From the NCBI RefSeq assembly GCF_014224355.1, contig NZ_VNWP01000009.1:62001-126000 (forward strand): DNA of 64,000 bases, given 5' to 3'. Every line of letters begins with the position of its first letter. Positions within the stretch are counted from its first letter, which is position 1. The notes below the pieces were generated by a model. The model had not been told where the DNA came from. It did not search any database and saw only the letters and a list, made by a program, of their open reading frames with translations. Of this stretch, positions 62,246 through 64,000 are shown in pieces. Position numbers and translations under genes: made by a program. The stretch is from Synechococcus sp. BSA11S. Its GTDB lineage: Bacteria > Cyanobacteriota > Cyanobacteriia > PCC-6307 > Cyanobiaceae.

Positions 62246-62383
62246 GGCATCCGGGCTGGCTGCCAAGAACGTACTGCGATCCTCGCCGAATCAGGCTGCG
62301 CTGGTTCCTTGGCGTGGAAGGAGCTGGGGGCTCCATGGGAAAATGACGCGGTCAGCGGCCTTCCGGGCCGATGGCAGACCCCT

Positions 62384-62468
62384 GGAGGGGTGGTCGAGTG
62401 GTTGATGGCTCCGGTCTTGAAAACCGGCGAAGGGAAACCTTCCGCGGGTTCGAATCCCGCCCCCTCCG
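62384..62468 (+). tRNA. tRNA-Ser (anticodon TGA)
   Basis: Acceptor GGAGGGG pairs with CCCCTCC and discriminator G at 62468. The anticodon stem CCGGT/ACCGG with loop CTTGAAA gives TGA for UCA codons. A long variable arm and the T-arm GCGGG-TTCGAAT-CCCGC are present (85 nt). CCA is not encoded. The 3' end coincides with a sharp drop in GC, as expected for an element integrated at the tRNA. Confidence 0.96.
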
Positions 62469-63463
62469 TTGATAACTCAGGAAAACCTGAGACGTCGGGA
62501 TGCTGCCAAGAGAAGGGAAGCATGGAAATATTACAGGAAAACTTCCCTTGGAAAAGGACTAAATGGCATTAGATGAACTTATCCCAGGGTCAACAACAGT
62601 TCATCGCTGCAGCCCCGTGGTGGCTCATACGTTGTTGAGTCCAGCCAAGGGAGCCGAGACGCTTGACTCTCAGTCCCTTAAGTTCTTGGGCCTATAACGG
62701 GCAAGAGCAGCAAAATAACCGCCCATGCCAAAAGGCAGACTTGGTCATGATGTTGAAAAGCTTGATTGCTGCCTGAGGGGTCATTGACCTGACCTTTTAG
62801 CCTATGTGATTCCAAACAGTGCCAGCCACGAGCGTGCCAAGCGAGTTACATTGCGTGACAAGTCTCAGACAAGACTTGTGACAGAACTGAACCTGTCTTT
62901 GCAGGGTTTTCACATTATGAGACCCCACCGAGACGGGAGAACCTGTAATTTTACCGGCGATAGAATCGCGCCGCCCCACATCGTCTACTGCCCATATCTC
63001 AAGAACCAGTCAAAGCAGGCACGTTGCTTGGACTTGCTTGATAGGCCTGTTTTTAGCCACTGCTTGATCAAGTGTTACACCGGTCAGAACACGATGCCCA
63101 TCGATAAGGGTATTGGCGCCCATTACCAGAACACCAAGGAATACATGCTCAGCCTGCCAATCACATGATTCTATGTCGCGGGCAAGGCTTTGCTCCCACT
63201 CATACTTGAACTTAACAATGGAGTTGCCCATGATTCTATGTCACAAGAAGAGGATAAAGCGGTATCAAGTCGCCTTCGGTCTTAAAGGATGCCACAGTTC
63301 AATAAACTGGCAGAAGCATGAATGCATTAGTTCTGTTTTTTTTGGTGAATACAGATTACTTAGTCCAGTTAGTGCAGTGCGCACCGAGTCGACCAGTTTT
63401 GTTATAGGGTAAGGGAGCCCTCTAGGCGTGGGCTGCGCCCCGATCTCTACGACCTAGACACAG
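62469..63463. other. low-GC region without recognisable gene, probable edge of an integrated element
   Basis: About 1 kb with visibly lower GC than the rest and no convincing gene. Several frames of 60-120 codons are open (for example 62806-63168 plus and 63010-63231 minus), but their products show no domain, start context or consistent codon use, and they overlap each other. A hairpin CTCAGG-AAAA-CCTGAG (62476-62491) follows the tRNA. CATGATTCTATGTC is directly repeated at 63164-63177 and 63229-63242. I saw no integrase. It may be a decayed IS or prophage fragment. Confidence 0.55.
63164..63242. repeat. 14-bp direct repeat CATGATTCTATGTC, 65 bp apart
   Basis: Perfect copies at 63164-63177 and 63229-63242. 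It lies in the low-GC stretch after tRNA-Ser. Could reflect a small duplication or old insertion footprint. Confidence 0.6.
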
Positions 63464-63493
63464 AAACGGCCCCCATTTCTGGGAGCCGTTTTT
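63464..63493 (+). terminator. strong rho-independent terminator before the primase gene
   Basis: AAACGGCCCCCA (63464-63475) pairs with TGGGAGCCGTTT (63480-63491), one mismatch, 4-base loop TTTC, followed by TTTT. It ends some plus-strand transcript upstream of the primase gene, though no matching gene is visible; a small RNA is possible. Confidence 0.75.
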
Positions 63494-63574
63494 GCCAGCC
63501 GAGACTGACCTGTTTTCGCTCACAGGATTTTAACTCGGCAGGAGGAAGGAGGGCCACCCCTCGCGCTATTCCCC

Positions 63575-64000
63575 ATGAAATCCGCTACAAGCGGCAAGGT
63601 CGGGCTCACGCCTCAACTCGCTGCACTCCGCCAATTTGACCTCGTACCGGTCAACGGCTACAAAGTTCCAGTCCACCCGAACCCGGCAGAACCGGCGATG
63701 GGATGGCAATACAGATATTACGACCCTGAGCAGATTGCCGACATGACATCGGCACAGGTCAGAGCAATTGGCATCCATTGTGAACGCAAAGACCTCTATG
63801 TAGTTGATCTGGACGGAAAGGCCGCCGTTGACTATGTAAAGGGAGAGGGCTGCGATCCCCTAGGTCCTGATATTGGCTGGAGGATTTATCGGGTTGACGA
63901 TAAAGGTGACACCGTGGTTTTTCGGTGGAAGATCCCCTTCATCCTCACGCCCGAGCAACAAGACCTCCTAGGCAGGACCAAATTCAGCCTCTCATTGATT
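63575..64000 (+). CDS. bifunctional DNA primase/polymerase N-terminal-like protein, truncated by window end
   Basis: 142 codons run off the end. The product begins MKSATSGKVGLTPQLAALRQFDLVPVNGYKVPVHP and contains GWQYRYYDPEQIADM, AIGIHCERKDLYVVDLDGKAAVDYVK, with the D-x-D motif (DLDG), an arrangement typical of the PrimPol-like domain found in prophages and other mobile elements. Base composition is lower in GC than the chromosome. ATG at 63575 follows GGAGGAAGGAGG at 63541-63552, somewhat distant. Role: replication of the element. Confirmation needs the rest of the gene. Confidence 0.6.
   Translation, partial: MKSATSGKVGLTPQLAALRQFDLVPVNGYKVPVHPNPAEPAMGWQYRYYDPEQIADMTSAQVRAIGIHCERKDLYVVDLDGKAAVDYVKGEGCDPLGPDIGWRIYRVDDKGDTVVFRWKIPFILTPEQQDLLGRTKFSLSLI

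Follow-up and report, generated by a model that had tools for sequence, protein, structure and literature searches.

The left junction at tRNA-Ser(UGA)

What interrupts the chromosome of Synechococcus sp. BSA11S at a serine tRNA gene, and how does that gene stay complete at the edge of an insertion? The stretch analysed here (the window, 64,000 nucleotides) is G000:C42:62001-126000, on a contig that runs to 128346. A sequence-only reading had proposed that a tRNA-Ser(UGA) gene near the right end of the window marks the edge of a low-GC integrated element, and that the tRNA itself remains whole. An intact tRNA-Ser(UGA) is called at 62383..62469 on the plus strand by both ARAGORN and Rfam (Rfam match at 62384-62468, 55.2 bits), and it lies within a 92-b direct repeat (62379..62470, plus strand) that comprises the whole tRNA gene with a few flanking bases and whose partner lies at the element's other end. 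The proposed fall in base composition beyond the gene was observed as well: GC is 0.676 across 1-62382 and 0.509 across 62471-64000, and the minimum among 6,086 overlapping 1,530-b stretches on the 5′ side of the tRNA is 0.600.

The first part of the low-GC region (62471..63574, assigned no strand, GC 0.499) contains no recognised gene, in line with the gap of about 1 kb noted earlier; over this ~1.1 kb, ORFs of at least 50 aa reach 120 aa at most, and the sole ORF scanned there (73 aa) has no Pfam match. In the Rfam scan the gathering score was reached by the tRNA and by no other family, no promoter-like site was found in a scan of 62300-64000, and the 1.1-kb stretch yielded nothing further when scanned for repeats, Rfam families, promoters and terminators. 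The terminal 300 bases on this side (62471..62770, no strand), which start with GATAACTCAGG, are 85.2% identical in DNA to another genome of the genus, G004, over 263 b. A short stretch conserved in G004 at 62996-63245 resembles a remnant of a minus-strand protein gene and contains the 73-aa ORF (63010-63231).

The PrimPol-like gene of the DxD type that had been recognised at the end of the window is indeed present. The window holds its first 142 codons (63575..64000, plus strand), and the reading frame stops beyond the window at L005:5942, giving a protein of 788 aa with matches to Prim-Pol (PF09250, E=5.7e-10) and DUF3987 (PF13148, E=4.3e-36). The DxD motif occupies residues 78-80 (window position 63806), a histidine is located where we would expect motif II, and a P-loop-like sequence, GQSGQKKTP, recurs in similar form in many relatives. 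PrimPol-DUF3987 relatives are located within approximately 2 to 4 kb of relatives of the recombinase described below in G069, G182, G151 and G261, and weakly in G199; a PrimPol search of phages returned one weak record. About 270 b past the gene, C42 enters a repeat that recurs at the ends of contigs C33 and C4; a version 98% alike lies inside C13, next to a 310-aa ORF that we take to be an IS481-type transposase.

A second complete tRNA gene beside a recombinase

The 92 b at 62379-62470 recur without mismatch at G000:C7:2708-2799, where ARAGORN calls a second complete tRNA-Ser(UGA); the two other serine tRNAs of G000 that were matched are 75-77% alike. The order on C7 is an Mrr-type endonuclease gene, a divergent recombinase gene (int, 338 aa), approximately 60 b of spacer, the tRNA and the chromosomal genes, GHL10 first, so that int faces the 5′ end of the tRNA and is divergent from it. 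The earlier expectation of an integrase and a second tRNA copy past the window therefore held in part: both exist, on another contig of the same genome, but the tyrosine recombinase is at the far end and divergent from the tRNA 5′ end, and the copy is a whole tRNA gene, not a second 3′ end alone as had been envisaged.

Contig overlaps in this assembly are frequently exactly 127 b, which exceeds the 92-b repeat, and each tRNA copy should therefore be truly assembled. C7 starts within a repeat different from the one that ends C42; since both contigs stop in repeats, the two ends are linked by synteny only, and we infer that they belong to one element. Small low-GC contigs were considered as filler for the gap and rejected as unplaceable, their ends running into shared repeats. 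In the readable part of the element, ~6.6 kb with a GC content of 0.543 on the left and 0.511 on the right, three long ORFs and one smaller ORF were scanned; the long ones are PrimPol-DUF3987, the Mrr-type endonuclease and the recombinase, none of which is a virion, packaging, relaxase or secretion gene.

The best explanation, to which we assign a probability of roughly 0.65, is an integrative element inserted in tRNA-Ser(UGA) whose attP would be a whole tRNA gene, leaving both junctions complete. With its two ends assembled and its middle missing, the element reads as loosely tycheposon-like, and it may be a prophage, a satellite, an ICE or a tycheposon.

Distribution of the insertion within the genus

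The survey of the genus covered nine genomes, G000 among them. Comparison with relatives that lack the insertion, as had been suggested, showed an empty site in five of the eight congeners (G001, G002, G003, G005 and G006), in which the folP-side flank is followed by one tRNA with GHL10 adjacent; neither flank was found in G008. Together with the recombinase and the second tRNA copy, these empty sites bear out the view that the tRNA gene is the edge of an inserted element. In G004, the two ends of the G000 element lie on separate contigs, each with a complete tRNA, the whole-tRNA repeat measuring 91 b there and 92 b in G000, and the copy is decayed, int and PrimPol being interrupted. The evidence base is thus one genome with apparently intact element genes and one decayed copy.

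G007 carries an unrelated element of ~10.6 kb between tRNA-Ser(UGA) and GHL10 (L127:2726-13300, G007:C41), which encodes an integrase of 413 aa that has standard Pfam domains, an AlpA-like protein and an AAA-domain helicase of 844 aa whose C-terminus has an endonuclease-like match. At the far end of this G007 element, 13 b match the 3′ end of the tRNA.

In a tree of folP and GHL10, G000 groups with G001 and G003, both of which have the empty site, and G004 groups with G007 (support 100/99 and 100/100). DNA identity between G000 and G004 is 91.8% for int across 790 b, rising to 97.4% in the 230 b next to the tRNA; for folP it is 78.8% and for GHL10 86.3%. Because the two genomes fall in different clades and int is closer than the flanking genes, the two insertions look independent. 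An old presence followed by several losses and later exchange would be the alternative, and the comparison favours two insertions; the PrimPol genes, at 66% protein identity, speak against a single recently shared element.

The same comparison bears on the possibility that the locus is composite, with two elements stacked at one tRNA, the PrimPol end stemming from one and the int-tRNA end from the other, and the whole copy not derived from one attP. The middle is unassembled, identity between G000 and G004 is uneven along the element (int, the left 263 b and PrimPol, the last at 74.6% in DNA), and the same tRNA gene receives another element in G007. Yet the paired ends occur in both G000 and G004, which lie apart in the chromosomal tree, so that stacking would be needed twice, and stacking by itself gives no tRNA 5′ half. 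We consider this arrangement unlikely.

The recombinase family

Residues R216, K236, R291, H315 and Y324, which we take to be the catalytic residues of a tyrosine recombinase, are invariant in 10/10 aligned rows of the int family, and all ten int-family sequences match the integrase family PHROG_1. The Pfam model Phage_integrase (PF00589) is matched by int with E=0.036, below its curated cut-off, and none of the ten relatives reaches E 0.01 against Pfam; searches by sequence in the PDB and in NCBIfam found no match to int. For a relative that is 35% identical, the predicted structure has a mean pLDDT of 83.2 and a pTM of 0.52, and all 13 PDB matches of this model in Foldseek at E<=0.001 are tyrosine recombinases; integrases of lambda, P2, XerH and integrons are among them, and the TM-scores are modest (0.27 to 0.44 by query length).

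At least one related recombinase is present in 377 of 400 genomes of the family. Among 399 order-level genomes, 12 have an int match at E<=1e-45, and G004 alone exceeds 43%. In a tree of 31 rows, the G000 int forms a long branch beside the group associated with tRNA-Met, -Leu, -Arg and -Ser, with a support of 87 and a placement flagged as unsure. Relatives in phages comprise three Cyanophage PSS2 records at 27%; in viral contigs, none was confirmed with the single-protein query, and the int profile (query A1) returned 44 loci. A recombinase 36-39% identical is widespread in the family (for example G000:C34:82549-83583, and L073, L153, L154, L156, L157 and L159-L162), and 10/10 scanned loci of this tier are without a tRNA in the stretch scanned.

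Whether int acts at all at this site is the issue in a further alternative, namely that a plasmid replicated by its PrimPol-DUF3987 protein and carrying tRNA-Ser by chance recombined homologously with the chromosome across the 92 b, int being incidental. DUF3987 proteins related to the 788-aa protein are found on 36 plasmid records, most of those listed being cyanobacterial, and none of the 36 covers 80% of the query at a single place; if a plasmid bore the full tRNA, one crossover within it would also yield exactly two complete copies. Against this, int lies ~60 b from the tRNA in both G000 and G004, the catalytic residues are kept throughout the aligned relatives, and 92 b is short for homologous recombination, and we regard the plasmid origin as improbable.

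Orientation of the recombinase at related islands

A tRNA was found within 800 b of the recombinase at 39 of 168 int loci. At 33 of the 39, the tRNA comes first, in the direction of int, which is the polarity opposite to that in G000; these do not amount to 33 independent islands, since several are the same record from two collections. The tRNA follows the int stop codon at two loci, and the divergent layout is found at four (G000, G004 and the phage contigs L314 and L315). The two phage contigs have a tRNA-Val opposite int and at first resembled G000 in polarity, but they do not differ from each other over 12,437 b and also contain the 3′ piece of a second tRNA (tRNA-Arg as read by eye), and were therefore rejected as further instances. 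The complete tRNA-Val of L314 (L314:995-1260) is odd, and the 3′ piece lies between it and int.

A tRNA-Ser(UGA) pattern was matched in 98 of the 400 family genomes, at two or more places in seven; the pattern was unmatched in 302 genomes, and the counts are therefore no census. The idea that whole-tRNA duplication is common was not borne out, as two complete copies occur among these seven in G000 and G004 only. The second copies in G158 and G189 are 3′ fragments from the anticodon arm on, and that in G069 is a similar 3′ fragment whose variable arm differs. The second places in G124 and G243 were read as contig overlaps and set aside: in G124 the flanks on both sides are the same as far as the sequence extends, and in G243 the downstream flank is the same and the second place lies at a contig edge.

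An island of ~28 kb at tRNA-Pro(UGG) in G264 (G264:C1:1707471-1735930; L202, L201) has a second copy that consists of a 45-b 3′ part of the tRNA at the far end, and PrimPol-DUF3987 is encoded close to that end. At the tRNA-Met, -Leu and -Arg islands of G069, G182, G031, G096, G204, G199, G151 and G006, no convincing second copy was found within 18 to 40 kb each, the best match being 16 b in G096 (E 0.14).

The predominance of the 3′-type layout among related int loci and the 3′ fragments in G158, G189 and G264 would suit an ordinary 3′-type island whose right end was later rearranged, gaining the 5′ half of the tRNA together with an inverted segment that holds int. Against this, int is on the 5′ side of the tRNA in both genomes with near-identical ~60-b spacers, and the rearrangement must predate both insertions; this is the least probable of the explanations considered.

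Proposed mechanism of integration

Under the favoured reading, an integrative element with a whole-tRNA attP, the excised circle would carry one complete tRNA-Ser gene between the divergent int gene and the PrimPol arm, and the PrimPol-DUF3987 protein would replicate it. Strand exchange by Int would take place within the two tRNA sequences, that of attP and that of the chromosome, perhaps at the anticodon stem-loop; because all the tRNA copies are identical, the crossover point is unreadable and has to be inferred. An exchange anywhere within the tRNA would generate two hybrid yet complete tRNAs, the left one with the native promoter and 5′ part joined to the 3′ part of the element, and the right one with the 5′ part of the element joined to the native 3′ part.

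Since int faces the 5′ end of the tRNA, insertion would separate the copy beside int from the native promoter, and this cost makes the benefit of carrying a whole gene evident: the promoter-side copy would be left complete as well. Tentatively, and with somewhat less than even confidence, we suggest that an entire-tRNA attP combined with this uncommon polarity represents a further solution to the problem of integrating into a needed tRNA gene, in which the lost int-side promoter is harmless.

Comparison with known integrative systems

Tycheposons, described in part in PMC10872708, are picocyanobacterial elements with a tRNA border and a tyrosine recombinase unlike the common Pfam integrases. 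The empty and filled sites likewise indicate insertion at a tRNA in a picocyanobacterium by an element with a tyrosine recombinase, whereas the G000 element has a whole-tRNA border with int at the far end, and the likeness is one of description only.

In the Islander scheme (PMC4383910), an island consists of a tRNA and a fragment, hits inside full-length tRNA genes are rejected, integrases are recognised via PF00589, and 5′ fragments, that is, integration on the 5′ side, are found in 159 of 3,919 islands. Such islands are like the present element in having a tyrosine recombinase, a tRNA target and a direct repeat of tRNA at both ends; a tyrosine recombinase is present inside the G000 element as judged by residues, PHROG_1 and the fold of a relative, though it falls below the PF00589 cut-off, and in place of a complete tRNA and a fragment both copies are full and identical.

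In tRNA-dependent lysogeny (PMC10865867), attP and attB have ~10 b in common, integration does not rebuild the target tRNA, and the phage carries its own tRNA at another place. The G000 element is alike in supplying a complete tRNA of the target's isotype, but it differs in that the carried tRNA is the 92-b junction repeat and both copies are complete. The PrimPol-PV1 group (PMC5862659) includes primase-polymerases in integrated elements, many at tRNA genes, some of them fused to putative helicase domains including DUF3987; it is defined there by a flange arginine, and the likeness of the G000 element concerns domains and integration context only. The PICMI satellite (PMC10803314) encodes an integrase, AlpA, a DUF3987/DUF5906 primase and Fis, and sits in the fis gene, whereas the target here is a tRNA gene.

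A literature search for whole-tRNA att sites, which took in few subscription papers, found no precedent, a review of archaeal tyrosine recombinases included, and absence from print is not claimed; one example found followed the usual pattern of a tRNA and a portion of it, and the search also led to tRNA-dependent lysogeny. The G000 element overlaps tycheposons, Islander-type islands, tRNA-dependent lysogeny and the PrimPol-bearing integrated elements, with a full match shown for none.

Implications for the detection of tRNA-borne elements

Mobile elements in tRNA genes are commonly detected by the broken tRNA piece that they leave behind. That two complete and identical copies flank the present element, and not the usual fragment, suggests an unusual way of entering an important gene without breaking it, and provides a concrete case in which a promoter-side insertion into a tRNA would be made harmless. 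If this is true, elements with two whole tRNAs would escape island finders based on fragments or on PF00589, and could be under-counted because they leave no fragment and have an int family below the usual Pfam model; they would also spread extra whole tRNA genes, raising the tRNA gene copy number.

Accessory features of the element

The Mrr-type endonuclease on C7 (Mrr_cat, PF04471, E=3.6e-24) has PADLOC matches both to restriction enzymes of type IV and to the Mrr portion of ZorD, and is probably defence cargo. The repeats in which C42 and C7 stop point to insertion sequences within the element, and perhaps to its decay. Immediately upstream of the int-side tRNA, a 9-b unit (TAAACTCCC-like) is present in two copies in G000, the second of them imperfect, and in three copies in G004; it could be a candidate binding site of the integrase or part of a promoter, and the int-tRNA spacers of the two genomes differ by one such unit and two substitutions.
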